Of a DNA stretch of 64,000 nt, positions 15,334 to 63,065 are shown one piece after another. How positions within the stretch are numbered: the first letter of the stretch is position 1; every line of letters begins with the position of its first letter. A model generated the notes under the pieces. It did not search any database, had not been told where the DNA came from, and worked only from the letters and a program-made list of their open reading frames with translations. Source of the DNA: a virus; the IMG/VR virus record IMGVR_UViG_3300036791_001578, positions 1-64,000 of that record; one strand, written 5' to 3'. The position numbers were made by a program, and so were the translations under genes.

Positions 15334-16536
15334 TTACGGGTTGGTAAATTTGACCCAATCCATGGCAGCGGAAGCTGATCCGTCATAAGCAGCTCTGGCT
15401 CCAAGTCTAAAAACCGTCCCGGTTACGGGTGGACCCACAATACCAGCAGCAACAAGCCTGGTCGTTTGAAGCCAGTTTACACCATTCGCCGAAAACGAAA
15501 TGATGTAATTGGTGCCATCATAAACAATCCTGACATATTTAACCGGTGAACTGAGGGAGCTGACAACTAAACCTCTAGTAGTGCCCAAAGAAGCCCCATA
15601 GTAAAAGGTCAGCGAGTTAGTAGGATTTTCCCCATTCGTCTGGGTACATAGCCACCTTATCACCAGTCCGCTACCACTTGGATTAAGCAGGCTAACATCA
15701 GCGGCAGCTTCACCAAGATTACTATTGCCTGCCCCAATGTTATAAGGCATTAGCAGTGCTTCTACCTTGCAGGTGACAGTAAAAGGATTGGCATTAGGTA
15801 TTCGTTGCTGGATATTACTATTGATAACAGCCGTACTGTTACCTTGATTACCTGCTATATGAACCCGACTAGCGACAAGCTCCATTACAGGATTCAGCAA
15901 ACCGGCAGTATAGGTCCATTTCGGATCTAGGGTTGCCCCATCAAAGCCATCATCAAAACTAGTTTGCGGAGTCCAGATCGCATCAGGATGATTTTTGAAC
16001 TGCGGGATAAATATCCCGTTCGGCACCTGGGGATCACTGACACTATCGCCGATAACGAACCGATCCGTAGCAGTAGGGATGGGATGGCTAGCATTATCGC
16101 CGCCTACATAGTCACTAGACTTGCCGCTCAATTGGGCTAATAACCCAGCCGCGGTGGCGCTGGCTAGCCCAATAGGATCACTCCCGCCGACATGCTGTGG
16201 TGCGTGGGGCAGCGGGGGAAAGAGATTAGGTTTGTTGGTGATGACCGACCAATCACTAGGAAAGCTTGCCGGCGCTCCGGTAACCCCGTTCCAGGGCACC
16301 GCATCAGCTAGGGCACTATGATTGCACTTGGTGGCCGTATCCGCCAGGATCGCGTGATCGACCTCGCCACTGATCCCGCTCGGCGCATATTCGCTTTTGA
16401 GCATGTCGCCGGTTCCACCCGTGCCTGAACCGGTCACAGTGATGGTGATCGCGCTAGCAGTTTCCTGCAGGGTGATGCCACTGCCCTCAAGCAACGCTTT
16501 AAAGGGCCAATAAACTCCAGGCTGACCTATAGGCAT
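15334..16536 (-). CDS. Tail fibre / receptor-binding protein
   Basis: A 400-residue product. Residues about 40-85 carry DMLKSEYAPSGISGEVDHAI and then LADT, a head-like segment shared with the next gene upstream (16538-17293). Residues 105-150 have H-A-P-Q-H-V-G-G-S-D-P-I, a phage fibre motif. The C-terminal 200 residues (FDDGFDGATLDPKW ... YDGTNYIISFSANGVNW) form a lectin/concanavalin-like jelly-roll domain that probably binds sugars. It ends VKFTNP. A receptor-binding role is inferred from this domain order. Confidence 0.75.
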   Translation of the reverse strand: MPIGQPGVYWPFKALLEGSGITLQETASAITITVTGSGTGGTGDMLKSEYAPSGISGEVDHAILADTATKCNHSALADAVPWNGVTGAPASFPSDWSVITNKPNLFPPLPHAPQHVGGSDPIGLASATAAGLLAQLSGKSSDYVGGDNASHPIPTATDRFVIGDSVSDPQVPNGIFIPQFKNHPDAIWTPQTSFDDGFDGATLDPKWTYTAGLLNPVMELVASRVHIAGNQGNSTAVINSNIQQRIPNANPFTVTCKVEALLMPYNIGAGNSNLGEAAADVSLLNPSGSGLVIRWLCTQTNGENPTNSLTFYYGASLGTTRGLVVSSLSSPVKYVRIVYDGTNYIISFSANGVNWLQTTRLVAAGIVGPPVTGTVFRLGARAAYDGSASAAMDWVKFTNP

Positions 16537-16537
16537 A

Positions 16538-17293
16538 TTATGGAAGGGTCTGAAGACCCGAGAGGAAAAAATTTATACCAGCGGTAAAATAACAGGTTAC
16601 GCCTTGAGTCTGATCGAGCACCAGGCGCCAAGTTAGTTGATTAGGGCCAGCGGCAAAGCTTTGCAACATCGCGGCCGAAAGCAGTACTGGTCTTGCCACT
16701 ACCTTCGGTGCTGTTAAGACACTGATATCAGTGGCCTGGGTTACTTGCACCCAGCCAGGAATGCTCGTGTCGTAAACTTCGAAATGCACGAGCCCCGCAG
16801 GGGTAAAACCAGGGGATGGTGCATAGAGATAAGGCGCATCGACAACGTAAACGCCAGGAGAAGGATTGGCTAAAATCCCAGTGGCAATGACGGCACCGCT
16901 CGTGGTCCCAGCTTGCAAACTCACGGCAGTTTCCGCCCTTAAGAAAGTTCGCAATGGCAGCGAATGCAACTGGATATCGCCTCCTAGATAGGAGCTCGGA
17001 TCCCCATTGCCGGCAGGGCACAAGCCGTCAGAAAAAGTCGTGGCTACATTGATGGGGTCATTGCCAGTTTGCAGATGTTGCAGCGCGTGCTTGGGCAAAA
17101 TGGTAACCGTGTCAGCTAACAATGCATGATCCACTACGCCGGGTTGACCGTTAGTCGCGTAGTTGGATTTTAACATGTAGTTAGTTGCGTCCGCTGTCGG
17201 CTGCATAATTACCAAGGGTAAGCACTGCTGATCTTGGAAATCGCTGGGCAGCGGGACTTCGATTATGTCAGCGCGGGTAAGTCTGTTTGACAT
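16538..17293 (-). CDS. Tail fibre-like protein
   Basis: A 251-residue product sharing Y-M-L-K-S-N-Y-A-x-x-G-Q-P-G-V-V-D-H-A-L-L-A-D-T (about residues 39-62) and H-L-Q-T-G-N-D-P-I with the downstream fibre, so the two likely arose by duplication of the N-terminal module. The C-terminal half is beta-rich with an S-P-G-V-Y-V-V-D segment. It is separated from both neighbours by one or two bases. Confidence 0.7.
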   Translation of the reverse strand: MSNRLTRADIIEVPLPSDFQDQQCLPLVIMQPTADATNYMLKSNYATNGQPGVVDHALLADTVTILPKHALQHLQTGNDPINVATTFSDGLCPAGNGDPSSYLGGDIQLHSLPLRTFLRAETAVSLQAGTTSGAVIATGILANPSPGVYVVDAPYLYAPSPGFTPAGLVHFEVYDTSIPGWVQVTQATDISVLTAPKVVARPVLLSAAMLQSFAAGPNQLTWRLVLDQTQGVTCYFTAGINFFLSGLQTLP

Positions 17294-17295
17294 AG

Positions 17296-17796
17296 TTAAG
17301 AAGCCTGTCTAGCAAAAGCGTTTTGAACTAACACACTGATAGGCGGCCCCGCGATGGGCGGAGGGATCTCGCCTAGTGGCGACATGTCCGTGTTCGTGCT
17401 GGGCAGTACGTCTAGTTCGCCCCGGCGGATGGTTTGGACTAACGCCGTGCTGGGAGTTCGGTATTTGAGATCAAAGGCATAAGAACCGGGCGGCAGATTC
17501 ATGGTCTGACCGGGCAACACAATGAGTGCGGTATAGCCGCAAGCCCCATGCTGCTCGTTCCAGATCACTTGCAACAGATCGTTCGGATCCGAGACATCCA
17601 GGCTGGCTTTGACCGTGAATAGAAAGGTCCAATCGGTGATGTCCGGTATCATGGGACATCCACAAAAGAGCTCGATGAAATAAACTAGCGCATCGCCCTG
17701 GATCACATCCCAGCGCTCGTTATGCTCGAAGTCACCCATCCAGGCTGGCCGCAGCGGTTGCTGCGGTCGCATCATCGGATACAGACTAGGATCCAT
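17296..17796 (-). CDS. Baseplate/fibre N-terminal-like structural protein
   Basis: A 166-residue beta-rich product. The pattern DWTFLFTVKASLDVSD, then LIVLPGQTMNLPPGSYAFDL and RRGELDVLPSTNTD, resembles the N-terminal domain of phage baseplate upper proteins (BppU-like), which attach receptor-binding proteins. It precedes two fibre genes in the same operon, matching that role. The assignment is by pattern, not by search. Confidence 0.6.
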   Translation of the reverse strand: MDPSLYPMMRPQQPLRPAWMGDFEHNERWDVIQGDALVYFIELFCGCPMIPDITDWTFLFTVKASLDVSDPNDLLQVIWNEQHGACGYTALIVLPGQTMNLPPGSYAFDLKYRTPSTALVQTIRRGELDVLPSTNTDMSPLGEIPPPIAGPPISVLVQNAFARQAS

Positions 17797-17926: not shown

Positions 17927-19186
17927 CTAAATGGTAAGCGAACCAACCATCATTCCGGTTCCCGTTCCGCCAGGATAACCTGGGCAAGTCGCAAAACCGA
18001 AGTCTGGCTGACAACGCTTGAATGCAATCGGGATCACGGCGTGCGGGCGCTCGGGCCGATACGCTCTAGTTATTTGATAGATGTGAAACCCGAAATCGCC
18101 GAATAGATTACAGTCGTTATCTCTGATACAAGTGAATTCCAATTCTCCTTGAGAAAATTGCGGGGGGAAGCGCCACTCACCTGCACCCGTAAATTGTTCA
18201 GGAACTAACCGTCTGAAACTATTCGCGAAAACTAAGAAAGCAATTTCGTATTGGGCTTCTAAGTAAGCGGGGTTAGCTCGCGCACCTACCCCCTTACTAA
18301 CTTGCACGGCCACCTCTGGCTCAACGAAGTCAGGAATTAACTGACCATTAAGTTCTTGGAAACTATCAAACCGCAGGGGCTGCTGATCAATGCCTAGGGC
18401 AATCCCCTGGTATGGGCCAGCCCAGGTATAGCCTGTAATAGTTTCTTCACCTAACGGATAGCGACCGGTAGTAAGCGCTCGCATATCATAGCGCACATTT
18501 AACTCATCGCGCAGCACATCGATTATATCGGCACCACCAATAAATTTACAGATAGTACCGGCCTCACTTTCGAAAGGTTCTGCTAGTAAAGCTTCGTGCG
18601 CCCAGCTCTCGGTGTACTTGAGGAATTTCCACGTAATGGCCGTGTCAGGAACATTGTCATCGTTGAACGACGCGTCAATATCTTGCACGTCACCACTAAC
18701 CATCTGCGGGAAAGTGTAAGCGGTGTTGCACTTAATTTTGACACCGGAGCGCAGCAGGAGTTGGCTCCTGACGTCGATGTTCATGAAGTACAACAACTGC
18801 TTCTGAATCGCATCTTGGGTGGCAGAATATGAGGCCGCGAATGCGGATCTCATTTGTTTTATGCAAACCTTAGGTCCGCGGCCACGGATTGTGCCAAGTT
18901 TCGTGGTGTACTCGGTCGAACCGGTCTCAGTCACGTTGCCCAGATCCGCGCACGAATCGATATCGTTAAAGAATGTGGGTAATACTAACGAGTTGTTCAG
19001 AAGCGGTCGCTCCATTACGATGTTACGTTGTTCGTCGCTGATACCAGCTTCGAAGGTACCTCCATCGAGCACGTCTGAAAAAGGACTTCTCCTCATCAGT
19101 AGTAAAGTAATATTACCAACGAGACGCGAGACATCCCGGTTGGCAAAATCGATAGCCTGTTGGGGGCTAATTAGGCAGTCGCCCAT
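17927..19186 (-). CDS. Putative major capsid protein
   Basis: A 419-residue product without enzymatic motifs. It begins MGDCLISPQQAIDFANRDVS, contains NVTETGSTEYTTKLGTIRG, a long helix region near residues 120-150 (MRSAFAASYSATQDAIQKQL), and beta-rich segments to SLTI. The length fits HK97-fold capsid subunits. The next gene in the locus is the His-Pro-Ile repeat protein, a type I recall beside capsid genes in podovirus-like phages. It has a long 5' region and is followed by a large inverted repeat. The capsid call is inference; another abundant virion protein is possible. Confidence 0.55.
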   Translation of the reverse strand: MGDCLISPQQAIDFANRDVSRLVGNITLLLMRRSPFSDVLDGGTFEAGISDEQRNIVMERPLLNNSLVLPTFFNDIDSCADLGNVTETGSTEYTTKLGTIRGRGPKVCIKQMRSAFAASYSATQDAIQKQLLYFMNIDVRSQLLLRSGVKIKCNTAYTFPQMVSGDVQDIDASFNDDNVPDTAITWKFLKYTESWAHEALLAEPFESEAGTICKFIGGADIIDVLRDELNVRYDMRALTTGRYPLGEETITGYTWAGPYQGIALGIDQQPLRFDSFQELNGQLIPDFVEPEVAVQVSKGVGARANPAYLEAQYEIAFLVFANSFRRLVPEQFTGAGEWRFPPQFSQGELEFTCIRDNDCNLFGDFGFHIYQITRAYRPERPHAVIPIAFKRCQPDFGFATCPGYPGGTGTGMMVGSLTI

Positions 19187-20522: not shown

Positions 20523-21206
20523 TCATGCTACTGCTAACGGTTTCAGGCCGTTCATCGCTACGGTGTGGTAGGTCCTTAGATCCCAGTCGTTACTGGCTAT
20601 CAGTTCCTTGTAGTACCTGGTCCGATACACCGTCGCATGCAGTATTTCCTTTGAGTGGGTCGCTAACCAATTGTGGCGAGCATGAGTGTATTGCTCAATC
20701 CACTCCTTTTCGTTGCCGCCCTGGGCCGGAGTCCGTTCGGCGAACTTAGATCGGATCGAGGACAAGATTGATCCGCTATGCAAGTAAGAATCGCAGATCA
20801 CTAGGAAAGAGAGCGGCAAAGTAAATCCCTCGGTTTCGCCCCATTTAACGCCGGGAGCCAAGTAGAATTTGTCGAACATCTCTTCCTGCACCTTCTGCAT
20901 CACGGGATCCTTGCCTGCCTCTTTTAACAAGTTGATGAACTCGTTACTATCGACGGTGCCCCGGTTCTGCATCTGCTTAGCCCAGGGTCCGAGCTGCTCG
21001 CTCAGTTTGCCTTGGGCTTTGCCATACACCTCGAGCACCGCTCCGAGATTGCCATACTGAGTAAAGCCGATCGAAAGGGTGATTTGTCTACAGTTGTTCG
21101 GCCCATCGTGATAACGGTAGACCTCAGAATAGTTCATTGTTTGCCGGCCTTGCTCGGCCACGATCAACACATTACGAATCTTTTCTAATTCACTTTGCGG
21201 TATCAT
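20523..21206 (-). CDS. Chitosanase-like (GH46-type) endolysin
   Basis: A 227-residue product. Residues 17-49 read AEQGRQTMNYSEVYRYHDG followed by a short spacer and RQITLSIGFTQYG. This matches GH46-like enzymes, in which an early Glu (E18 here) and an Asp about 16-18 residues later (D34) are catalytic and a conserved T-x-x-I-G-F-T segment follows. Related phage proteins are annotated as chitosanases or peptidoglycan hydrolases. Its start overlaps a holin-like gene, so lysis is the likely role. No signal peptide is visible, consistent with holin-dependent release. Confidence 0.75.
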   Translation of the reverse strand: MIPQSELEKIRNVLIVAEQGRQTMNYSEVYRYHDGPNNCRQITLSIGFTQYGNLGAVLEVYGKAQGKLSEQLGPWAKQMQNRGTVDSNEFINLLKEAGKDPVMQKVQEEMFDKFYLAPGVKWGETEGFTLPLSFLVICDSYLHSGSILSSIRSKFAERTPAQGGNEKEWIEQYTHARHNWLATHSKEILHATVYRTRYYKELIASNDWDLRTYHTVAMNGLKPLAVA

Positions 21207-23421: not shown

Positions 23422-25287
23422 CTAACTGTCCAGATCTGGGTTCCAAGCAACCCCTGCTTTCGCTCCACGCTCAATTATTCCGATCACTCCACGACGCTTG
23501 CGAATGACACTGCGTCCCGTAGCTCGAGCTCGCTCCGGCCCCTGGATTCTCACTTGATGCAGCATCATGACCATGGCGTCGGCTCGGTCCGGCGACCAAC
23601 CGTAATGGGATTTGAATTCTTTCTTAGGCTGAATGCGAACGCGGGCCATCCCGGTCGGACCTTTAGTGGAGAGTCCGTATTTGCGCTGAGTGATCTCTTT
23701 GATCAGCTTGTCGTTGTCGAGCGTCGGAGAGAGCTTCAGGTAACCGAACTCGATCCAGCGTCTCAGCGCCATGTACATCTCGGTCGCGATCCCGTCGTTC
23801 TCTTCGATCGCTTTATGCGTGTCGTCTTCGAGGATCGGTTTATCGGTCGCGTCCTGGCCCCAGTTAATGCCGGCGACTTCGGGATCCCACAGGCTGATCA
23901 GCGCGTCATGCAAGCCCGTGCCGACGCCCGTCCGATCGCACAGAAACCACTCTGGGCTTACTGCCAGCTTGTCGCATAGCTCAATAACAGCTTCCGCCTG
24001 CTCAATTGTGCGGATCTTTGGTAATGGGAAAAACTGGTCGACCTGCAAAGCGAATCTTTGCTTGTCGAAATAGTAGACCTTGCCGGTGAGCGGATCTCGC
24101 CAGCCGCTAGCCAGCCCATAGCGCCCAGCACAAAATATGGCCTCGTCGTCACCTTCAAATGCGATGTCCAACGCACCAGTGGGCACTACCCGTCCGATAA
24201 AGAGTAGCGTAGCGGTGAGCTGATCCAAGTAGGAAAGTGGAATGACGGTGTTAGCGGCACCCTCTAGAGGGTACATACCTCGGGCCATCGTATAGTAGTC
24301 GGGGCTGTTGCCTCCGCCTTTTAGCCGCAAGTTTTCGAAGCCGGTCCACGTCATGAAGCCTGGGTAGACCACGGAATGTTGGACGACGTTCTCTAAATCG
24401 GCACCATCGATTCGCACGACCTTCCATCGCTCTCTTGATACCCATTCTTTGTCGCGATCCAGCTGCACTCGAGTCCAACCGATGGGCGGTTGCGCGTATG
24501 CAGCGAGCGGGGACAGAACATCGCTCGGATTGCACGCTGCCGTCACCTTAATCAGGTCCGAGCCGTGCATCGAAAGCAGCATGTTGCTAATTCCGCGCCA
24601 CAGGCCGATTGGCACTTCCTCGGCCTCATCCACAAAAGCGCGGACTCTTCCTACGTTGCCAAAAATTGAATCCGGCGCGGTCCGCGGCAATGGGTGAAAC
24701 CCTTGCAGCGCGGCGCGGCCTGTGGCACCCGGGGGAATCGAAACTCTGCTGATGCCGGCGTGCCGGTTCTTGGCGTCCAAACCGATAAAACCGTCCAAAC
24801 GAATCCCTGGCAGCTTTATTCGCGATTGCGAATGGAGCATGTGCAACGTCGAAAATACGTTTGATTTGGCGTGGCCAGCTGTGCTCGAAATTATTTTCGT
24901 GTTGGTGAACTGCGGATCACGCAGCCAGTCCAGCAGATACCAGGCGATCGACGAATAGCTCTTACCGCAGCTGCCGGCACCCATCAAAATGAGCATCGGC
25001 TCTTTGTAAATGTTGGACCAAATGCGCTGAACGCACTGCGGACGCGGATCGAAGAGCTCGTCGGTCCAGATGAGCTTAGCAACCTCGCTAAGCAGGTTAG
25101 CGCGAAGCAGGCGCCAGACCAACGCCCACAAATACGCATCGGCCTGGGCCACTAATTCACAGCTAGGCTCGAGTTGGCGAACCGCCTCGAGCCTTTCTTC
25201 GTCGGATCCGCCCCCGAGCGTTTCCCTTAACTCATCAATCAGTCTTTGTCCGGTAACTGGAGCGCTGAGCATTCTGGGTGCATCCAC
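23422..25287 (-). CDS. terL: Terminase large subunit
   Basis: A 621-residue DNA-packaging motor. The ATPase part has a Walker A-like G-A-G-S-C-G-K-S (residues 103-110), a Walker B with VRAFVDEAEE (D220-E221) and a coupling motif T-A-A-C-N-P (249-254). The nuclease part has an acidic ALDIAFEGDDE strand near residue 365, LCDRTGVGTGLHDAL near residue 445 and R-A-D-A-M near residue 585, fitting the RNase-H-like metal site. It docks on the portal to cut and pump DNA. It overlaps the WDGH gene by 49 bases. Confidence 0.9.
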   Translation of the reverse strand: MDAPRMLSAPVTGQRLIDELRETLGGGSDEERLEAVRQLEPSCELVAQADAYLWALVWRLLRANLLSEVAKLIWTDELFDPRPQCVQRIWSNIYKEPMLILMGAGSCGKSYSSIAWYLLDWLRDPQFTNTKIISSTAGHAKSNVFSTLHMLHSQSRIKLPGIRLDGFIGLDAKNRHAGISRVSIPPGATGRAALQGFHPLPRTAPDSIFGNVGRVRAFVDEAEEVPIGLWRGISNMLLSMHGSDLIKVTAACNPSDVLSPLAAYAQPPIGWTRVQLDRDKEWVSRERWKVVRIDGADLENVVQHSVVYPGFMTWTGFENLRLKGGGNSPDYYTMARGMYPLEGAANTVIPLSYLDQLTATLLFIGRVVPTGALDIAFEGDDEAIFCAGRYGLASGWRDPLTGKVYYFDKQRFALQVDQFFPLPKIRTIEQAEAVIELCDKLAVSPEWFLCDRTGVGTGLHDALISLWDPEVAGINWGQDATDKPILEDDTHKAIEENDGIATEMYMALRRWIEFGYLKLSPTLDNDKLIKEITQRKYGLSTKGPTGMARVRIQPKKEFKSHYGWSPDRADAMVMMLHQVRIQGPERARATGRSVIRKRRGVIGIIERGAKAGVAWNPDLDS

Positions 25288-31700: not shown

Positions 31701-32504
31701 ATGGCGAACATATTAATGTGCCTCCAGCTCTCGCCCGTGGACGCGGACCAAGCGGTCGAATTGGTCAGGTTGATCGTAGCGCTGGATAAGCTCAAACCTG
31801 CCAACGCTCGGCCCGAATGGATGGTGTCTTATCGCAGAGACACGCCGCGGGGCCGCGTCACGACTATCTCTAACGAGCTCTGTGAGCGTTTCATGACCGT
31901 TTACACAACCGAAGCTAGCCACTATGCCAACGGCTGGCCGGCGGGTTCTAACGCCCTGTGGCGCTCAACCATGGAAGACGTGGCCAGCATCTATCAAGCC
32001 GACGAACTTGAGGCTAAAGGCGTGTTAACTTTTGAGCCCGATTGCTGCCCGCTATCGCTCGATTGGATTGACCGGCTAGCCGAGGCCTACGGGATGCGGT
32101 TACAGCCGATTCTTGGTAACCAGCATGGTGCCGGACTAGAAGCCACTCACATTAATGGAAACGCCATCTGGCCGGTGCAGTTAGCGATCGAATGGCCCCA
32201 GATGCTGAGCACTCCGCCCGAGACCGCCTGGGATTGGTATCATCGGGATTTTGTTTTGCAGCATGCCGAGGATACGCCGCTGATCACTCAGCTTTACCGG
32301 CGCAAAAACCTCTCGCCAACCGAATGGAAAAATATCGAGAAATCAGGGATCCGCCCGGTTCTGCTGCATGGCATTAAGGACTCCTCTGCTCGCGCCCACG
32401 CTAGGACTCATCTCTTGCAGGCTAGCCCCGCCACTCGCAGGGTGCCACAAACAGTCCCGAAGGCGGTGACTAAACGCAATTTGCAAACTCCGATGCAGCC
32501 CTAA
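31701..32504 (+). CDS. Glycosyltransferase-like protein
   Basis: ATG 31701 (MANILMCLQLSPVDADQAVE) is chosen over an upstream non-ATG start inside the hairpin region. The 267-residue product has RRDTPRGRVTTIS, WPAGSNALWRS, a conserved acidic LTFEPDCCPL and a late HGIKDSSA motif. I recall this set in phage glycosyltransferase-like proteins. Beyond about residue 240 the sequence becomes basic and low in hydrophobics, in the 162-base overlap with the convergent gene 32343-33221. Enzyme activity is not proven. Confidence 0.6.
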   Translation: MANILMCLQLSPVDADQAVELVRLIVALDKLKPANARPEWMVSYRRDTPRGRVTTISNELCERFMTVYTTEASHYANGWPAGSNALWRSTMEDVASIYQADELEAKGVLTFEPDCCPLSLDWIDRLAEAYGMRLQPILGNQHGAGLEATHINGNAIWPVQLAIEWPQMLSTPPETAWDWYHRDFVLQHAEDTPLITQLYRRKNLSPTEWKNIEKSGIRPVLLHGIKDSSARAHARTHLLQASPATRRVPQTVPKAVTKRNLQTPMQP

Positions 32505-33221
32505 ATCCGCTGGATTCTGGGTCCAGCTGTGATACTGATGCCAGCGGTTAGGCGGCATGGCGGACTCATGCATAAATGCGTACTCTTTGGCTTGGAAACG
32601 ATAGGCATAACTCCCGAGCAGATCGTAGTCCATTAGTGTGATCGGATGGCTCGAAAATTTTAGCGGATCAAACTCGTTATCCGAATAGACCAGCGCGTCA
32701 TAGTAGCGGCCATGCATCCGAGCTAACCAATCCCGCATACCTTCGAAAGTATCTCGATGGTAAAGGATCGGGTTGCGGGACATGAAATGAACCTCTGCCG
32801 GTTCTTGAGTGAGCCTTTCAGTAACCTTTTTCCAGGGGCTATGTGGAAAGAGCCCCATGTGTTCGTCGTAACGCACGTAGCCTAGTCGCGGGCGCTTCCC
32901 GTTGGCCAGATCGTTAAAGCGAACCGGCTCGAGCAGTATGCAATCCGAGTCCATAAGCAAGATGTAGTCGCCAGTGCAAAAATGGTCAGCCAGCGTTTTC
33001 ATCCACATGGCGTGACAGTATCCGTCCGGCCAGGGCACCCGATAATAGACGTTCAGATCTAAAGCAAAAGCGTCTGGGTCAAATTCGCCGCGGCAATCTT
33101 CATCGAGCACGATCACTACCTGCGGCTCCTCTTCCATCCAATTGCATTCAAGGAAACGCAGGGCATAGGCTAGCCATTCCAAGTCCTGCAACCAGCTTTT
33201 GATAAAGATTGATACTTGCAT
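32343..33221 (-). CDS. Glycosyltransferase-like protein (DUF6492 type)
   Basis: A 292-residue product beginning MQVSIFIKSWLQDLEWLAYA. YILLMDSDCILLEP (about residues 86-99) gives the D-S-D metal motif of GT-A enzymes; EVHFMSRNPILYHRDTFEGM and DYDLLGSYAYRFQ fit a nucleotide-sugar transferase of the DUF6492 kind. The C-terminal 54 codons overlap the convergent neighbour and look less conserved. Possible targets are modified DNA, host glycans or virion proteins. Confidence 0.68.
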   Translation of the reverse strand: MQVSIFIKSWLQDLEWLAYALRFLECNWMEEEPQVVIVLDEDCRGEFDPDAFALDLNVYYRVPWPDGYCHAMWMKTLADHFCTGDYILLMDSDCILLEPVRFNDLANGKRPRLGYVRYDEHMGLFPHSPWKKVTERLTQEPAEVHFMSRNPILYHRDTFEGMRDWLARMHGRYYDALVYSDNEFDPLKFSSHPITLMDYDLLGSYAYRFQAKEYAFMHESAMPPNRWHQYHSWTQNPADLGLHRSLQIAFSHRLRDCLWHPASGGASLQEMSPSVGASRGVLNAMQQNRADP

Positions 33222-36070: not shown

Positions 36071-36100
36071 GGAAACGCACCTAGTCCTCCTCAGTCAAGA
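36071..36100 (-). repeat. Direct repeat, downstream copy
   Basis: Read leftward: TCTTGAC-N6-GGACTAGGTGCGTTTCC. The same element with the same spacing occurs at 36535-36564. Its start overlaps the last codons and stop of the ADP-ribosyltransferase-like gene, so this gene lies between the two copies. Confidence 0.75.
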
Positions 36101-36531
36101 ATCACTTTGGTTATCGTTGAAAGATCGAAAACGACCGTTTCGCCACGATGCCCAGTCCTGATGCCTGTATAGCCGTCGGCCAGAAAGTATTCGCGAACCA
36201 GTTTGGCAATGATGTCCCGATCGTTGTCACGTACTGTCAGCATTTCCTGATCGCGAAATGCTATGAAATGGAAAAACTGCTCCTCGTAGGTCGAGGGTTC
36301 CAGATTCACGCCATTATCCAGGAAGTAAGGATTCTCAATATAGGCAAAGCGACTGACGTCGACGTAGACCTTGAGGACTTTCCCATGGCACTTGGCAATC
36401 CGGTATTGAGGTGTCAGGTAAATGCCTAGACCAAAATCGCCAGCGTCCTTGCGTCGCGGTCCGTCGAGTCTAAAGCCTTCAGCAATGATCTTTTCAGCTG
36501 CGTCGGTTCCGTGGTAGTAACGCTGATTCAT
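36091..36531 (-). CDS. ADP-ribosyltransferase-like protein
   Basis: A 146-residue single-domain product. Y-Y-H-G-T (H7), D-F-G-L-G-I-Y-L-T (Y38) and G-E-T-V-V-F-D (E131) supply the H-Y-E triad and the strands of the diphtheria-toxin/PARP-like ADP-ribosyltransferase fold. Phages use such enzymes to modify host RNA polymerase, translation factors or defence proteins. The gene starts three bases after a conserved leader element and is bracketed by direct repeats, a sign of a cassette. The activity and target are inferred. Confidence 0.65.
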   Translation of the reverse strand: MNQRYYHGTDAAEKIIAEGFRLDGPRRKDAGDFGLGIYLTPQYRIAKCHGKVLKVYVDVSRFAYIENPYFLDNGVNLEPSTYEEQFFHFIAFRDQEMLTVRDNDRDIIAKLVREYFLADGYTGIRTGHRGETVVFDLSTITKVILD

Positions 36532-55999: not shown

Positions 56000-56797
56000 T
56001 TAGTAGCTCACTCTCGTGTTAGGGCTAAGATTTGGCGGCGTAAAAAACGCTGGTTTAGGTAGCGGCAGATTGGGTGCCGTGTAGCTAGCTTTCTCTGAGG
56101 AGATGTTCTTACCAATGTTCTGCAACCCAGAGCCGATCGCGCCAATAGCCGAGCTGCCCATCTCGCCACCACTCATACCTCCGCCTCCAAAAGAAGTGTT
56201 TGCAGCGTTGGAAGCGTCGATCCCCGAGGAGTCAGTTGCTACACCTCCGGTAGTCTGAGGCGCTTGCGGAGTAGCAGGAGTTGGAGGGCCAACTTGAGTA
56301 CTCTGGTCAAGGAGGGGAACGTTGAGGGGGGCTGTTGTTGGTTGTTGGGACTGGCCTGCACCGCCGCCAAAAAAGTTGCGTATCCAATCGAGGAAACCTC
56401 CGCTGCTCGAACCATCGGCGCTGTCATTATTGGCTGGCTGGCCGACCTCTGGATTCCGGTTCATCGGCGTAGGACTCTGCCGAACCGCCTCTCGTTCTAT
56501 GTGACCAGGGAAATGCCTGTTGAGATGACTCAAGTAGAGGCTGCGCAAAGCTTCGTTGTTTGGCTGCCCATCACTTGCCAGCGCCTGATGATAGAGCCGG
56601 TGGGCTTCATCATAAGGATCCAGGGCTTGCGCGGCGGGCGCAGCGGCGGGCGCAGCCGGTTGAGCGATAGGAGCAACGGGTTGTTGCAGTGCTGGTGGCA
56701 CCTGGGCTTGTGCTACGGGCGCAGCAACCGGGCGACCGTACATTTGCTGATAGCCACGGTTAAATTGATCAATCGAATTATTCAGGAAGTTTGGCAT
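56000..56797 (-). CDS. Structural-operon protein, 265 residues
   Basis: The N-terminal 20 residues (MPNFLNNSIDQFNRGYQQMY) are helical, then comes a long alanine/proline/glutamine linker, a short folded EAHRLYHQALASDGQPNNEA segment and a serine/glycine C-terminus ending S-P-N-T-R-V-S-Y. Its start lies inside the last codons of the TfuA gene (20-base overlap), so it is co-transcribed and coupled with it. It could be a minor virion protein, or a substrate for the modification pair. Confidence 0.58.
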   Translation of the reverse strand: MPNFLNNSIDQFNRGYQQMYGRPVAAPVAQAQVPPALQQPVAPIAQPAAPAAAPAAQALDPYDEAHRLYHQALASDGQPNNEALRSLYLSHLNRHFPGHIEREAVRQSPTPMNRNPEVGQPANNDSADGSSSGGFLDWIRNFFGGGAGQSQQPTTAPLNVPLLDQSTQVGPPTPATPQAPQTTGGVATDSSGIDASNAANTSFGGGGMSGGEMGSSAIGAIGSGLQNIGKNISSEKASYTAPNLPLPKPAFFTPPNLSPNTRVSY

Positions 56798-58109
56798 CGC
56801 CTAAACGGTCCCGTGCCAAGGCGACCATCAGCTCTCGGACGGTCCCAAATCCCATCTCGCGCACATAATCCTCTAAAGACAGGGAGATCGTCAAGCCTGC
56901 CCTCTGGGCGTGGCGGGCCAGGAGGTTAGCAATGTCGACTTGGCCACCAAAAGTTAGTGCCTCTTCTCCGCCTTTTTTAGCGACTTGGGCCTCGTGACGG
57001 CCTGCGGCATTAGTCCAGTAAACGTACTGGCCCGAGAGTTTGAGGTAATCGAGCAAGCGCTGCGTCCGGCGCCGCGGCCCGCTTCGGACCATCAGGGCTC
57101 GGCGCAGTTTTCGTAAACGCACCTCTTCGCTTAAGATCCGTACTAGCTCTTTCCCGTTGAGATGATGTTCGCGCATCCAACGGTCGTGCTCTTCGAGCGA
57201 GCGCAGATTGCGGCGGATGTTCGAGCGCTGCCATTCCTGATTGATTTCGTCATTGGTCACCGGGATCCGGTAGATATCGGCGAGCAAAAGCGCCAGGGTC
57301 CGGTTATCGGCGTCCTCGGTGTGCTGTTCGTACTCTTGGTCGTGCAAGGTAATGAACGCATCCAGATCTTGGAGCTTGATGTGTTGCTGGCCTACCCAGA
57401 TCGCTCGGTCGCGCTCAAACTGTGCGCTAAATAACCAAGAGAGCGCCTCCTCGGTCGGTTTAATCGCATTGTCGGCCTGCTTCAACTCGCGGAAGGTGCA
57501 GAGCAATTCCAGAGCATCGATTGCCTTCTGATTATGGCCTCTCAAGATCTCCAAAAGGATTGGGTACTCGGCGAGCATTCGCTCGGTCCGTTCAGTCCAA
57601 TGAATACTGCTGGCAAGGGCGAAGATTTCTTCAGCCTCTTCCTGCTCGAGTACTTCCGTCTCGAGGGCCTTCATGAGTGCTCCGCGCACGTTGACCAACG
57701 GGATCGTAGTAGCAACGAGTGACCCGTCTCGGGCGTGAGCGTAAGTTGAGGCGACTTCGCTCTCCTCAGTGATAACGCCTTCGTTATACCAATGGAAAAT
57801 TCGACCAGCTCCGATCATTCCAAAGGGCGACAAGTCCGCGGCTCTCAGAGCCCCCATCGAAGCGGCTCCGTAGATGCCTTTGACTCCCGGCACTTGCAAC
57901 GCCCACACGATTTCCTTGTGCCAGACCGAAAGGGCTTGATGAAAACAACCTGTTATGAGTAGAACGTGACTGGGCTCAAAATGCATCAGATCACTGATGA
58001 AATCGCCCTGGCTTACTGGGGGCTGGATGATAGCGGCAGGGATCCGTTCGCGAATACTGTCGTGATCTAATTCAGGCCCCGTATAGACCAGCACTCTCTC
58101 CTCATCCAT
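56778..58109 (-). CDS. tfuA-like: TfuA-like protein, partner of YcaO
   Basis: A 443-residue product. Residues 1-135 match the TfuA core: G-P-E-L-D near residue 11, VLLITGCFHQALSVWHKEIV (49-68), G-A-A-S-M-G-A-L-R-A-A-D-L (81-93), F-G-M-I-G-A-G-R-I-F (96-105), E-E-S-E-V-A (115-120) and a V-N-V-R motif (129-132). TfuA proteins pair with YcaO enzymes in thioamide formation, probably by delivering sulphur. Here a ~300-residue helical C-terminal extension follows, longer than in typical TfuA proteins. It lies downstream of YcaO with a 124-base gap holding a possible 23-codon ORF. Confidence 0.85.
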   Translation of the reverse strand: MDEERVLVYTGPELDHDSIRERIPAAIIQPPVSQGDFISDLMHFEPSHVLLITGCFHQALSVWHKEIVWALQVPGVKGIYGAASMGALRAADLSPFGMIGAGRIFHWYNEGVITEESEVASTYAHARDGSLVATTIPLVNVRGALMKALETEVLEQEEAEEIFALASSIHWTERTERMLAEYPILLEILRGHNQKAIDALELLCTFRELKQADNAIKPTEEALSWLFSAQFERDRAIWVGQQHIKLQDLDAFITLHDQEYEQHTEDADNRTLALLLADIYRIPVTNDEINQEWQRSNIRRNLRSLEEHDRWMREHHLNGKELVRILSEEVRLRKLRRALMVRSGPRRRTQRLLDYLKLSGQYVYWTNAAGRHEAQVAKKGGEEALTFGGQVDIANLLARHAQRAGLTISLSLEDYVREMGFGTVRELMVALARDRLGDAKLPE

Positions 58110-58343
58110 ATGAGATCAAAAATTATTGAAGCTTTGCCACCGTGGTTACGAGTGCTTTGGAAGGTTGAAGTAGATTTCGTAAATGGAAAGCGAATAATAG
58201 TGCAAAGAAAAGAGCATCACCGCCTGCCGGAAATTAGGATGGCTCGGTTTTTTGGATCTCTCGGGCTAGCGCCGCGGGCGCTCGGCCATTTGTCTTCCAT
58301 TGTTCGCACCACGCTCCTTCAAGCTGCGGAGCCACTGCTTTGA
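58110..58343 (+). CDS. Doubtful rightward ORF overlapping the YcaO end
   Basis: A 77-codon frame starting MRSKIIEALPPWLRVLWKVE begins one base beyond the TfuA start on the other strand and overlaps the last 110 bases of YcaO. Its first 45 residues look amphipathic and basic; the rest is the reverse reading of YcaO. No ribosome site. It is recorded because it lies beside the modification genes; a real gene is unlikely. Confidence 0.2.
   Translation: MRSKIIEALPPWLRVLWKVEVDFVNGKRIIVQRKEHHRLPEIRMARFFGSLGLAPRALGHLSSIVRTTLLQAAEPLL
58146..58217 (-). CDS. Candidate 23-residue precursor peptide between YcaO and TfuA
   Basis: ATG 58217 follows a GGCAGGCGG sequence and opens MLFSLHYYSLSIYEIYFNLP, then KHS, stopping at 58146. 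It is the only leftward ORF of this size in the 124-base gap. The peptide is rich in tyrosine, leucine and serine, has no cysteine and no leader/core division, so it could equally be an untranslated spacer. Confidence 0.3.
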   Translation of the reverse strand: MLFSLHYYSLSIYEIYFNLPKHS

Positions 58344-59499
58344 CGACGATCAACCTCTGATCTCCGAAATCTTCTCGCGCCAGCTGCGCGTAGTAAAGCC
58401 GGTCTATGCCCTCGGCGCTTAGCCGACCGAGAAGAAATGACAGCTCTTGTTTAATCGAATCAAATCTGAACTCTGGATACTGGGCCGCGAATTCATTCCA
58501 CGTTGGTTTAACCGCTGGCAGCATTTCTAGTTGCCCGATGAGCTGCTCGGAGCTGTGACGTTTCATCAAAATGAAATCACGCCGGTAGAGATCATCGCGA
58601 GCGCCGGAGATGTAACAGAGCCGACTCTGGATCGCCTCGAGTAAAGCCCGCTGAGCTGCAACCCTGAGACTTTGGCTGCAACCGTAGCCGCCGAAGAGTC
58701 CGACGCCGTCCCGGCCAAATAGGGCACAAGCCATTACCGGAATGCCAAGCTCTTGAGTGCAATCGTAAAGAAAGGGATAGAGTCCTGCTCTACGCATTAG
58801 GGCCACACTCCATTCCAGTTCCGCCGGCAGGCCAACTAGCGGAACCTTGATTGGCGGGATCCCGATCGATTCGCGAATGAACTGGTTGCAGGTCCACCCG
58901 TCGCGCTCGACCAACTCATAGAGCGCCTGCAAGACCGCGTCCTCTACATCGATCCCGCTCGCCAGGCCGTTGCTGGTTTGCTGAACGTCCAGAAACTGCT
59001 GCAACACCCGGTCTTTTAGCCAGACCATGTGCGAGGGCATCCAGACAAGCTTGCCGCTTCCTAAATGGTGGACGACTTCCCAGGCTACCGGCGTGTTTTC
59101 GTCCAGTATGTTGTCCCTGGCCAACGGATAGTCTTGCAGCGGCAGCACTTCCGCCGCTGTGTCCTTTTGTATATCGACATAACTGCAAAGCTTGTAGGCG
59201 CTGGTTGGATTCTCCGCAGCCCAGAATTCGATCGCTTCGACAATCGATCCCACGCAGCTCAAGACCGTGTCAGGATTCTTCCCGGCAGTGACCGATATGG
59301 TCGTAGCCAGTGGCCGGTAACAGACCCAGATCGGAACGCCGATGATGTCGAGCCCATCGATCTGGCGATAAGAACTGATCCCGTACCGGAGCAGACTCGA
59401 GTAGGGCAGGCGATAGACAGTCTGGGCTAGGTCGGCGCGGGCATTGGCCCTAGCGTCGTTACCGAGATAGGCTAGGCAAGGCTGCATAGGGCAAGCCAA
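58234..59499 (-). CDS. ycaO-like: YcaO-domain ATP-dependent peptide-backbone modifying enzyme
   Basis: A 421-residue product with all three YcaO ATP/Mg regions: SVTAGKNPDTVL, then S-I-V-E-A-I-E (69-91); T-S-N-G-L-A-S-G with E186, then E-L-V-E-R-D (175-200); and G-Y-G-C-S then RALLEAIQSRLCYISGARDD (271-303). The preceding Y-G-I-S-S-Y ... L-D-I-I-G-V-P-I-W-V-C-Y-R-P is typical of TfuA-associated YcaO proteins. YcaO enzymes activate an amide with ATP to make azolines, amidines or, with TfuA, thioamides. The C-terminus lacks a P-x-P-x-P motif, unlike azoline-forming members. It overlaps the structural gene upstream by 41 bases. Confidence 0.9.
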   Translation of the reverse strand: MACPMQPCLAYLGNDARANARADLAQTVYRLPYSSLLRYGISSYRQIDGLDIIGVPIWVCYRPLATTISVTAGKNPDTVLSCVGSIVEAIEFWAAENPTSAYKLCSYVDIQKDTAAEVLPLQDYPLARDNILDENTPVAWEVVHHLGSGKLVWMPSHMVWLKDRVLQQFLDVQQTSNGLASGIDVEDAVLQALYELVERDGWTCNQFIRESIGIPPIKVPLVGLPAELEWSVALMRRAGLYPFLYDCTQELGIPVMACALFGRDGVGLFGGYGCSQSLRVAAQRALLEAIQSRLCYISGARDDLYRRDFILMKRHSSEQLIGQLEMLPAVKPTWNEFAAQYPEFRFDSIKQELSFLLGRLSAEGIDRLYYAQLAREDFGDQRLIVVKAVAPQLEGAWCEQWKTNGRAPAALAREIQKTEPS

Positions 59500-60328
59500 A
59501 GGTCACAAATTCCATGGCTAGACGGACTGGCGCTTTCGCCCAAGAATGCCGCTCAAGCCATTCGGCCATCTTTGGCCCATGCTGCACGTACAATGACCGT
59601 AAAGGCTTCGGGGCACGGCTAAGCATAAAGTATCGGAAGCGCTTCCACCGTGGGTGGTAGCGCCCATAGGCGGCGCGGGCCAGCCAGCAGAACGCGACTA
59701 CGGCTAACGCACTGACTGCGGTGCCGGCTGCGCCGACTGCACTGCCCGTCGATGCGTTGGCGGCATTTGCGCTAGCCACTGACTGTTGAGCAGCCATGTT
59801 CGCGGCAAACTGACTTTCCTGAACTTTGTAGGCGTAGTCCGTTTGGTTCCAATTATTTTGGCCAGCGATGTTGCCAAGTGCGATTTGGGAAGCGTCGGCA
59901 CCGGAAAGTCCGAAGCTGCGCGGCTGGAAAGTCTGATTGGCGGTTTGGAACTGGTTCATCAGCTGTTGCTGATAGTTCATCTGGTTCACGCCCAAGTTTC
60001 TGGCGATGTTCGCTATCCCTGGCGTGCCAGTGCCCAAGCTCCAGCCGCCGGTCGCACCTAGCGCTCCGGTCAGTCCGCTGCGAGCCCACAGATTCTGGAA
60101 TTGCGGCGTGATGTTGCCGGTCTCCTGATTCTGAAGGTTGTTTAGAAACGTCTGCTGAGTATTCCAGAGCTGCGGATAACGCTGCCGAAAATCCGCGTCG
60201 GAGAGCCCATATGCCGTCTGATCCATTCCGACGGCTTGCTGTTCAATCGCGGTCGGATTGGCAGCGATAAAGGGCGGCATCGAGCCTGGCAGAGTCGGTT
60301 TTGGAAAACTGGGCGCGGTACTGGGCAT
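59459..60328 (-). CDS. Virion-type protein with a C-W-x-A-R membrane-anchor domain
   Basis: A 289-residue product. The first 180 residues are glutamine/asparagine-rich helices with WNTQQTFLNNLQNQETGNIT and GADASQIALGNIAGQNNWNQ. Residues about 195-289 hold a transmembrane-like helix (GAAGTAVSALAVVAFCWLAR) and W-K-R-F-R-Y-F-M-L-S-R-A-P, H-G-P-K-M-A-E-W-L and A-P-V-R-L-A-M. I recall this C-x-x-A-R-x-x-Y-G ... F-R-x-x-(M/L)-L domain at the C-terminus of phage structural and ejection proteins. Being immediately upstream of YcaO makes it a candidate substrate. Confidence 0.68.
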   Translation of the reverse strand: MPSTAPSFPKPTLPGSMPPFIAANPTAIEQQAVGMDQTAYGLSDADFRQRYPQLWNTQQTFLNNLQNQETGNITPQFQNLWARSGLTGALGATGGWSLGTGTPGIANIARNLGVNQMNYQQQLMNQFQTANQTFQPRSFGLSGADASQIALGNIAGQNNWNQTDYAYKVQESQFAANMAAQQSVASANAANASTGSAVGAAGTAVSALAVVAFCWLARAAYGRYHPRWKRFRYFMLSRAPKPLRSLYVQHGPKMAEWLERHSWAKAPVRLAMEFVTFGLPYAALPSLSR

Positions 60329-60714
60329 TAGTCTACCTCGAAGGGTTTAAGCGGTAGATCACTGAGGCCCAGCTTAGCGAGAAGCTCTGGGTTCGCCAAC
60401 ACACTTTTATCGTCGATTAGCCAGAGCGGATTTCCGAAAACACGTTTGCTTGTCGCGATCACAACCTTGGCCACTTCGTAAAATTCTCGTGGGCTCAGCG
60501 CATCTGGCGAAACCGTTGGCCGAATCACGACCTGGGGTTGTGCGTAATAGTAAGCAATAGGCCGCTCATCTACTAAAACGACAAAAATTGGAAAAACCGG
60601 CACCACCTCGACCTTCGATTCCTTGGCCAACTCATCGAGGCCCCACATGAAAATGCCCTCTTCATTGTCGATGCGGATCTGGGAGATCTTTTGGCGAGGA
60701 GTAAAGGTTCTCAC
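60328..60714 (-). CDS. Unknown 128-residue protein
   Basis: GTG 60714, overlapping the collar gene's stop, gives MRTFTPRQKISQIRIDNEEG read with Met. It has alternating strands (VEVVPVFPIFVVLVDERPIA; YYYAQPQVVIRPTV) and ends K-P-F-E-V-D. An upstream ATG at 60816 lies inside the collar gene. It is the spacer gene between the collar set and the structural gene before YcaO. Function unknown. Confidence 0.55.
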   Translation of the reverse strand: MRTFTPRQKISQIRIDNEEGIFMWGLDELAKESKVEVVPVFPIFVVLVDERPIAYYYAQPQVVIRPTVSPDALSPREFYEVAKVVIATSKRVFGNPLWLIDDKSVLANPELLAKLGLSDLPLKPFEVD

Positions 60715-61535
60715 TGATATTTGATCATATGGTTGATGCAGGCAAAGGGCGGCATGATTGGAAATTGCTGTTGGGCACTTCCCAGTGCCTTGCCGGTCAT
60801 ATCCGTAACCCCCCAAGAAAAGGTCGAGGTAAAGTTTGGCGTGCCGGGCGCTTGAAGGTTGGGAATCGGATTACCCGGCAGATTGGGCGGCAGTGCGTTA
60901 GCCACTTTAAATGGAGAGGTGCGTAGCGTTATTTTCATCCAGTCGAAGTGTGAACAGGTAACGTCAGTGGCAAGCAAGTCGCCCGACAATTGGCTGCCGC
61001 CTCTTGAGCCTACTCCGCTAGTGGGCGGAGTAATCGGGTTCCCGCTCTCGTCGGTAATATCCAAGGGCACTCTGCTTTGAGGAACCCAGCCAGCCGCGTT
61101 CATATAGATTTTCGCTCCCGGCGGCAAATTGAAGGTGCTGGCTCCGTCCCCAGCGCCCCAGGTTTCCCCGACCGCTTGGAACAGCCGGCGATAGGTCGAA
61201 CGCGAAATCTCAGAGCCATCACAGGTGATCCACCCTTGCGGCTGGTAACCCTGGCTACCGGCAATCATGGCAATGGTGCCAATCGGGCAACCTTGCTCTC
61301 CCGGCTGATACTGAGAACTGCCAGGATCAAAAAACCACCACTGGTTAGTGGCATAGTCGAACCAAGGCCCAATGTCATGCGTCGGCATCGCTCCCCCGCT
61401 TCGCCCAATGAGCACGCTCGGATCCAACTCGCCAGAGAGTGATTCTCCGAACAAATTGATAAAACCCGGCACCTTACCGTTCCAACCCAGCGGAGCTGCG
61501 GCCATCGTTAAGTTGATCAGGATGGGCACTGACAT
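60711..61535 (-). CDS. Tail-collar-domain protein, paralogue 3
   Basis: A 274-residue product. G-C-P-I-G-T-I-A-M-I near residue 82, GWITCDGSEISRSTYRRLFQ, AVGETWGAGDGASTFNLPPG and a final PPFACINHMIKYQ make the phage tail-collar domain. It is related to the next two genes upstream, in the same order of motifs. Such proteins are short fibres or collar/fibre tips. Confidence 0.8.
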   Translation of the reverse strand: MSVPILINLTMAAAPLGWNGKVPGFINLFGESLSGELDPSVLIGRSGGAMPTHDIGPWFDYATNQWWFFDPGSSQYQPGEQGCPIGTIAMIAGSQGYQPQGWITCDGSEISRSTYRRLFQAVGETWGAGDGASTFNLPPGAKIYMNAAGWVPQSRVPLDITDESGNPITPPTSGVGSRGGSQLSGDLLATDVTCSHFDWMKITLRTSPFKVANALPPNLPGNPIPNLQAPGTPNFTSTFSWGVTDMTGKALGSAQQQFPIMPPFACINHMIKYQ

Positions 61536-61541
61536 AGGTTC

Positions 61542-62288
61542 TTAGAGGTATTTGATGATAAAGTTACAGCCAACGTAGGGCGGCATCACCGAAACCGGTT
61601 GTTGGTTAGTTCCAACTAGCACTCCGTTGTTATCGATTACCGGGTAATCATAGGCCGCACCTAGAACACCAGAGAGCGTGTCCGGCACATTGGTGCCATC
61701 ATCGATAATTGCGGGATTCAAGAAAGGCACTTGAATGTTCAAGGGCGGCAGTGCGCTTGCCGGAATAACTACCTGTTGTGCCCCGCCGGTGCCTCCCGCC
61801 GGAACATCTGGGTTTCCATTAAATGAAACCCCAGGCTCAAGGAAGAAGCCCTGCGCGTTCATGAAGAAGACGCCACTGGGAGGTAGGCGGAAAGTGTTGT
61901 TTCCTCCGACTCCCCAAGTGGTGCCGATGGCGTTAAAAAGCCGAGGATAGGTGGCAATATTGAGTGGTCTGCCGTCACAAAGCAGCCAACGAGCTGGCAC
62001 CATATCGTTTCCGGCTTGTCCCCAGATGGCAACGGTGCCAATGGGGCAACCTCCTTCAGAAGGTTGGTAGCCATATCCCGGCACCCAGACCCACCATTCA
62101 TCCCCGTTTAACCAGGGGCCGACATTGGACGAGGGCGCAGGGCCTCCGACCTGACCGGTAATGAAACTGACATCGATTGAGCCGCTCAAGCATTCGCTTA
62201 CCAACGTGGCAATATCGAGAACTGATTCACCCTGCCAACCGATCGGCGGAGGAGAGGCCTCAATTAAAACTGGAACTGGAACAGCCAT
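61542..62288 (-). CDS. Tail-collar-domain protein, paralogue 2
   Basis: A 248-residue product. C-P-I-G-T-V-A-I-W-G-Q-A, RWLLCDGRPLNIATYPRLFN, AIGTTWGVGGNNTFRLPPSG and PPYVGCNFIIKYL define the tail-collar domain. The N-terminus (DVSFITGQVGGPAPSSNVGP) repeats in both neighbours. It lies 6 bases upstream of paralogue 3. Confidence 0.82.
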   Translation of the reverse strand: MAVPVPVLIEASPPPIGWQGESVLDIATLVSECLSGSIDVSFITGQVGGPAPSSNVGPWLNGDEWWVWVPGYGYQPSEGGCPIGTVAIWGQAGNDMVPARWLLCDGRPLNIATYPRLFNAIGTTWGVGGNNTFRLPPSGVFFMNAQGFFLEPGVSFNGNPDVPAGGTGGAQQVVIPASALPPLNIQVPFLNPAIIDDGTNVPDTLSGVLGAAYDYPVIDNNGVLVGTNQQPVSVMPPYVGCNFIIKYL

Positions 62289-63065
62289 CTAGCCTGCTTT
62301 AATGATGTAGTTGACCGCAACGAAGGGAGGAGTAATCGAGAATTGCGTCTGGGTTAAGGTATTAAGTTGGGTCCCTTGGGCATCGCATAAGATAAAGTCC
62401 CAACCCTCAACGTTTGGCTGATTAGCCGGGTATAAAAAAGCCAGCGTGTACACTCCTCCTTGGGTTTTTTTGGCGGCCATTACATAGGGCACCGGCACTT
62501 TCATCGGCGGCATGTTAGCCGCAACTAACAGCGCAGCTAATTGGTTACCGCCCTGGCCATTAACAAAGTAACCACGTCCATTGCCGCTGGCATCGATGGG
62601 GACGCTCGCTACAGGCCTAAAGCCCTTTTGGTTCAGATAAAACAGACCCCCAGGAGGAAGGTTAAAGGTCGTAACGCCGTCGCCCCCGCCCCAAGTGTCG
62701 CCAATCACCTGATGGAGCTGATTATACTGAGTACGTAAAACCTCGCTTCCGTCACACAACAGCCAATTGGGAGGAACACCAGGCGAGCCCCACATCATGA
62801 CCATGCCGATGGGCACCCCTTCTATGCCGCGTTGGTATTTGCCTAAACTCGGCTCCCAGAACCACCATTGGGCTCCATTAGCCCATGGCCCAATGTTTGT
62901 GGTCGGTGCCGAGCCTCCTAACTGGCCGAAAATAATATTCGGAGGATTGATGAAAGTCGTGCCCAGCGAATCGGCCACCCGGTTCATGAGTTCTTGCACG
63001 CTCTCCGGTATGTCCTCCATCGGCGGAGTCTTCACATAAAAATCGACTGGGAGGGGCGCAGACAT
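62289..63065 (-). CDS. Tail-collar-domain protein, paralogue 1
   Basis: A 258-residue product. V-P-I-G-M-V-M-M-W-G-S, NWLLCDGSEVLRTQYNQLHQ, VIGDTWGGGDGVTTFNLPPG and PPFVAVNYIIKAG mark the tail-collar domain. It is directly followed, without a spacer, by paralogue 2. Together the three make a tandem array, likely forming heteromeric or alternative receptor-binding tips. Confidence 0.82.
   Translation of the reverse strand: MSAPLPVDFYVKTPPMEDIPESVQELMNRVADSLGTTFINPPNIIFGQLGGSAPTTNIGPWANGAQWWFWEPSLGKYQRGIEGVPIGMVMMWGSPGVPPNWLLCDGSEVLRTQYNQLHQVIGDTWGGGDGVTTFNLPPGGLFYLNQKGFRPVASVPIDASGNGRGYFVNGQGGNQLAALLVAANMPPMKVPVPYVMAAKKTQGGVYTLAFLYPANQPNVEGWDFILCDAQGTQLNTLTQTQFSITPPFVAVNYIIKAG

Follow-up and report, generated by a model that had tools for sequence, protein, structure and literature searches.

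A YcaO-TfuA gene pair conserved among the late genes of a phage group: a candidate viral thioamidation system

Introduction

In Methanosarcina, formation of the thioglycine of methyl-coenzyme M reductase (McrA) needs both ycaO and tfuA (PMC5589413), while the Escherichia coli YcaO thioamidates a folded protein, the ribosomal protein uL16; these two are the only proteins in which backbone thioamides have been proven (PMC13063428). A global survey of TfuA makes no mention of phages (PMC8120280). Here we analyse a 64,000-nucleotide stretch, hereafter the window, which comprises bases 1-64000 of IMG/VR virus record IMGVR_UViG_3300036791_001578 (67,068 bases long) and carries the following pair of genes:

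58234..59499, minus strand: YcaO, 421 amino acids, TfuA-associated type with the motif Q-x-R...GARDD (PF02624, E 1.1e-47)
56778..58109, minus strand: TfuA, 443 amino acids, an N-terminal TfuA domain followed by a helical C-terminal extension (PF07812, E 3.5e-34)

The YcaO-TfuA set is conserved across a group of phages. By analogy with known TfuA-linked YcaOs we propose, with evenly balanced confidence, that the pair is a late-acting, phage-borne, TfuA-dependent YcaO system that would install a backbone thioamide, most likely in a virion protein of the same operon.

The phage pair resembles the McrA system of methanogens in having adjacent ycaO and tfuA in the same order, in the TfuA fold (PDB code: 6xp8) and in the conserved YcaO columns, and in both the substrate is apparently a protein and not a peptide. 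It differs in scoring under the cut-offs of the McrA models TIGR03266 and NF033432, in its long helical TfuA extension and in its separate clade. With the clusters of thioamitides and other TfuA-linked ribosomally synthesised and post-translationally modified peptides (RiPPs), both of the thioviridamide type and of the wider TfuA families, it shares the YcaO-TfuA pair, and long TfuA variants are also known in Myxococcota and Actinomycetota; unlike these clusters, however, it has no co-conserved precursor gene, it stands in a virion-gene setting and it falls on a separate branch. The E. coli YcaO works without a TfuA partner, whereas the phage YcaO has one and misses the E. coli-type model NF040716.

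Results

Both open reading frames (ORFs) proposed in the initial annotation of the window are open on the minus strand. PF02624 covers the window YcaO over its full length (model positions 2-325 of 325), which places the protein in the YcaO superfamily, and its nearest solved structure is MJ1094 (PDB code: 6pe3; E 7.5e-17). The annotation had also held that the regions binding adenosine triphosphate (ATP) and Mg are kept; on alignment, every column conserved in cellular TfuA-type YcaOs is retained, including E88, E91, E96, N177, G178, E195, E198, R199, D200, E288, Q291, R293, R301 and D303. In the other phage YcaOs there are few deviations at columns conserved in both the phage and the cellular sets, and these are mostly mild, the shortened L087 protein being the main exception. 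The GARDD-type motif Q-x-R...GARDD, placed after the last ATP motif, occurs in 26/26 phage YcaOs, in 104/111 TfuA-linked cellular YcaOs and in 0/2 non-TfuA cyclodehydratases; the idea of a TfuA-type motif comes from an earlier survey (PMC8120280), and the exact pattern was defined in this analysis. This motif, together with the tfuA gene next to ycaO on every contig that extends far enough, identifies the YcaO as TfuA-associated, in agreement with the annotation.

The assignment of TfuA is borne out likewise. PF07812 (2-119 of 119) maps to residues 54-175, phmmer links the protein to the solved TfuA of Methanosarcina acetivorans (6xp8) with an E of 1.9e-23, and the AlphaFold2 (AF2) model (mean predicted local distance difference test score, pLDDT, 87.7) has 6xp8 as its best Foldseek match (E 1.7e-12; template modelling score, TM(target), 0.77), so that the protein belongs to the TfuA family. 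Residues ~226-443 form the helical C-terminal extension, which is common to closely related phage members; Foldseek of the AF2 model gave no clear structural match for the part beyond ~226. To judge from these sequences, the window very probably encodes an active TfuA-type YcaO system.

The window YcaO falls short of all the cut-offs of the specialised models: 119.4 of 365 bits for TIGR03266 and 134.4 of 235.2 for NF033432 (McrA thioamidation equivalogs), 80 of 219.25 for TIGR03604 (SagD-type azole cyclodehydratase), and 36.5 of 700 for NF040716 (uL16/S12 YcaO of the E. coli type).

Neither YcaO nor TfuA was matched by tblastn in 50,697 deposited phage genomes. Profile scans of IMG/VR yielded 22 TfuA and 12 YcaO loci, and further loci were obtained with a phage-only YcaO profile and from a capsid-like gene of the same phages; on viral contigs, single-sequence YcaO and terminase searches and a two-sequence TfuA alignment gave no matches, broader alignments being required. 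Several loci being one contig, the distinct YcaO-bearing contigs number ~25-30, of which L092, L216 and L233 stop before TfuA; the pair is found on ~25. Within the close group the TfuA proteins are 34-66% identical over their whole length, and the YcaO identity of the distant members L084, L085, L086, L087, L229 and L233 is only ~30%. Nearly all members have the same order: late genes, an upstream virion-type gene (in most cases preceded by a small conserved gene), YcaO, TfuA and more late genes. L085 differs, its pair lying between a portal-like gene and a scaffold/capsid pair of the SU10 type (PF17236, E 2.4e-41; PF23899 barely exceeding noise and short of its cut-off). This 12-kb SU10-type phage fragment thus offers a second location for YcaO-TfuA. 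One contig with the pair, L081, also has a PAPS (3'-phosphoadenosine 5'-phosphosulfate)-reductase-like gene (16448-17371, minus strand), recognised by eye only, which may bear on sulfur supply.

Two genes elsewhere in the window are the following:

17927..19186, minus strand: major-capsid-like protein, 419 amino acids, the most conserved gene of the phage group; capsid identity putative
23422..25287, minus strand: large subunit terminase (phrog_2, E 6.4e-14)

The capsid-like protein has ~65% identity across the group and no match in Pfam or PDB. It was found in 23 records, 17 of which have YcaO; the other six are four fragments of 4-11 kb and G026 and G032, whose sequence breaks off 3-4 kb beyond the capsid gene, short of the YcaO position in their relatives. 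Because these contigs end early or are short fragments, the six do not represent losses. Near the terminase, a glycosyl hydrolase of family 46 (chitosanase-type; 20523-21206, minus strand; PF01374, E 2.6e-15) may serve in lysis or be auxiliary.

In a maximum likelihood tree, 26 phage YcaOs stand on one side of a branch and 69 cellular TfuA-linked YcaOs on the other (support 100/94; 100% of 200 bootstrap trees), and a quick tree of TfuA also sets the phage and cellular rows apart (support 92). The cellular rows are mainly from Pseudomonadota, Actinomycetota, Planctomycetota, Myxococcota, Cyanobacteriota and methanogens, and were taken from one collection scan and ~1,380 genomes of four phyla; a closer cellular relative is possible in unsampled phyla. 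On the sequences compared, the phage YcaOs are a phage-specific enzyme clade. The synteny across many contigs and this clade rule out bacterial contamination, and the contig belongs to a phage, as the annotation had taken it to. The ratio of nonsynonymous to synonymous substitution rates (dN/dS) is 0.05-0.17 in pairs with usable dS (overall 0.02-0.17, the lowest values resting on saturated dS). Strong purifying selection and the conserved residues therefore indicate that both genes are kept for their function.

Among cellular matches the top local TfuA identity belonged to L043, a metagenome-assembled genome labelled 'Klebsiella pneumoniae', which was set aside, its neighbouring genes resembling a bacterial RiPP cluster; besides TfuA, the contig encodes a small protein of the NHLP type and has genes resembling flavin adenine dinucleotide-dependent oxidoreductases, and it is probably mis-binned. 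In Myxococcota, at least one TfuA copy was present in 109/195 genomes searched, with up to five in some.

The surroundings of the pair in the window are as follows:

62289..63065, minus strand: tail collar protein 3 (PF07484, E 1.8e-17)
61542..62288, minus strand: tail collar protein 2 (PHROG tail and collar families, best E 3.5e-7)
60711..61535, minus strand: tail collar protein 1 (PF07484, E 1.1e-15)
60328..60816, minus strand: conserved late gene with no assigned function, 162 amino acids, homologues in the same place in most relatives
59459..60328, minus strand: upstream virion-type gene, 289 amino acids, homologues directly 5' of YcaO in ~20 phage contigs
59501..59689, minus strand: CFI-box-like domain of the upstream virion-type gene, residues 214-276 (CWLARAAYG...), from a 15-copy alignment
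56000..56797, minus strand: late gene 3' of TfuA, 265 amino acids, a 42% identical homologue in the same place in L066
55158..55946, minus strand: next late gene downstream, 262 amino acids, homologues in L066 and L067
52652..55153, minus strand: long late gene, 833 amino acids, L066 homologue in the same place; by its position, likely an internal virion protein

The reported overlaps of 41 and 20 bases are correct: the YcaO frame, from a TTG at 59499, reaches 41 bases into the upstream gene (29 bases if an alternative in-frame ATG at 59487 is the start), and TfuA shares 20 bases with the gene at 56000-56797. A gap of 124 bases lies between YcaO and TfuA in the window, and in many relatives the two genes overlap. 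The annotation had further placed the pair between virion genes: three collar genes lie upstream, and the immediate neighbours belong to no named family but have a conserved order in related phages. Few of the neighbours could be named from PHROGs, Pfam or PDB profiles, and Pfam and PHROG scans gave no named family for the 56000..56797 product. The clearest virion markers of the operon are the three tail-collar genes, which stand in tandem at 60711-63065 and differ in copy number among relatives; further markers, the terminase and tail fibres, are elsewhere in the genome. Farther away, also on the minus strand, are two glycosyltransferase-like proteins (4680-5513 and 32343-33221; PHROG matches weak) and a weak, below cut-off match (36091-36531; E 2.6e-4) to ART-PolyVal, the ADP-ribosyltransferase domain of polyvalent proteins.

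The upstream virion-type protein consists of a Gly/Ala/Gln-rich core, a hydrophobic Ala/Gly segment and the C-terminal CFI-box-like domain. It does not reach the cut-off of the CFI-box-CTERM model (NF041770, 19.6 of 40 bits), and its similarity to the phage relatives is nonetheless clear. Across the 15 aligned phage copies C1, A4, R5, G9, F18, R19, P27, Y34 and A42 are invariant. In the AF2 model, which is mostly of low confidence, the box is helical (pLDDT ~72-89). Since most members, among them the distant L084, L086, L087 and L229, have the box directly 5' of YcaO, it could itself be the substrate. In L068, L080, L081 and L083, however, the upstream gene stops just before the CFI-box Cys and no copy exists elsewhere in their sequence records, despite a catalytic YcaO-TfuA pair that is intact in all four (dN/dS 0.155 and 0.172 for L080 and L083). 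On the YcaO tree this amounts to at least three loss events (L068; L080/L083; L081). Moreover, the box is widespread in phages (567 real relatives among the 600 matches listed), with no YcaO directly downstream in 79/80 of those examined. HMO-2011-type phages resemble the window in that one of their late genes ends in this domain (39% over 64 amino acids), yet neither YcaO nor TfuA is found in the HMO-2011 genome. The CFI-box cannot be the sole target, because it is missing in at least three lineages with intact enzymes; as an obligatory substrate it was discarded, and as a substrate at all it is improbable. In L099-L178 and in HMO-2011 (L003 6001-6192) a CFI-box-like domain (CWVAREVYG...) ends a phage late gene that immediately precedes further late genes, a very common arrangement. 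Every upstream gene in the group has the Ala/Gly-rich segment, which also occurs in many YcaO-less phages and is therefore only a candidate substrate.

The same domain bears on the nature of the product. The YcaO superfamily yields several products (PMC13063428), and the invariant Cys in the adjoining gene of most members would suit the formation of azolines, or of another product, in place of a thioamide. The losses just described, along with the low dN/dS of L080 and L083, disfavour an azoline on this Cys; the thioamidation model TIGR03266 comes closer than the SagD model (119 against 80 bits, neither reaching its cut-off), TfuA adjoins YcaO on all contigs of sufficient length, and the motif typical of TfuA-linked YcaOs is present. 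We regard a product other than a thioamide as decidedly unlikely.

Bacterial TfuA-YcaO pairs are usually interpreted as RiPP clusters (PMC8120280), and a small peptide was among the substrates offered in the annotation; once thioamidated, it might act against competitors or rival phages. However, no small ORF is co-conserved within 4 kb of the pair across 20 loci, except overlapping frames of larger genes, nor was a RiPP companion family found among the neighbours scanned; the locus thus lacks the marks of a RiPP cluster. Two frames lying between YcaO and TfuA, one of 23 codons in the window (124-base gap) and a small one in L068, were rejected as precursors, neither being conserved. With no co-conserved small ORF, a RiPP or peptide antibiotic is therefore very improbable.

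Discussion

We propose that, late in infection, YcaO would convert an amide C=O of a protein backbone to C=S in an ATP-dependent reaction, and that TfuA, as in known TfuA-linked YcaO systems, would help to bind the substrate or deliver sulfur. That the product is a thioamide is probable by analogy with these systems; given such a product, the position in the operon makes a virion protein a reasonably likely substrate. The leading candidates are the neighbouring gene product (its core or Ala/Gly segment), the capsid protein and the portal protein. Somewhat more tentatively than the general proposal, we suggest that a dedicated, phage-specific pair thioamidates one of the phage's own virion proteins. 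This would be a third class of thioamidated proteins, following McrA and uL16, and the first of viral origin; presumably the modification would stabilise or shape a component of the particle or of ejection.

Several points weigh against thioamidation of a virion protein. Both the thioamide and its substrate are predictions. TfuA homology by itself is no proof of thioamide chemistry, TfuA having been named from the trifolitoxin cluster. No feature of a neighbouring protein is common to all members: L084, L086 and L087 have only the CFI-box and the Ala/Gly segment upstream in common with the others, L068, L080, L081 and L083 have no CFI-box, and L085 sits elsewhere. The late operon position may, in addition, be compatible with a host substrate. 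Genes directed at host functions are frequent in phages, and late in infection the pair could thioamidate a host protein (e.g. a ribosomal protein) so as to retune the cell, a reading that gains from the lack of a single virion feature common to all members and from the established thioamidation of uL16 by a stand-alone YcaO (PMC13063428). In every member examined, however, the pair is found among late virion genes and not among early genes, and the uL16/S12-type model is far from reached (36.5 against 700 bits); a host target thus appears rather unlikely, and a virion substrate is preferred.

The annotation knew of no earlier phage system of this kind, and we likewise found no report of a phage YcaO-TfuA in the searchable literature, outside of which most subscription papers and preprints lie, so that this absence is no proof. 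Neither the chemistry nor the protein families are new; the viral clade and the virion-gene setting appear to be undescribed. This pair, familiar chiefly from methanogens and from natural products, is a stable gene set of phages, and has been so for long enough to reach ~30% identity. With a conserved viral pair in the midst of particle genes, thioamides would gain a third setting, mass spectrometry would have new substrates to seek, and the function of TfuA could be studied in a compact system.

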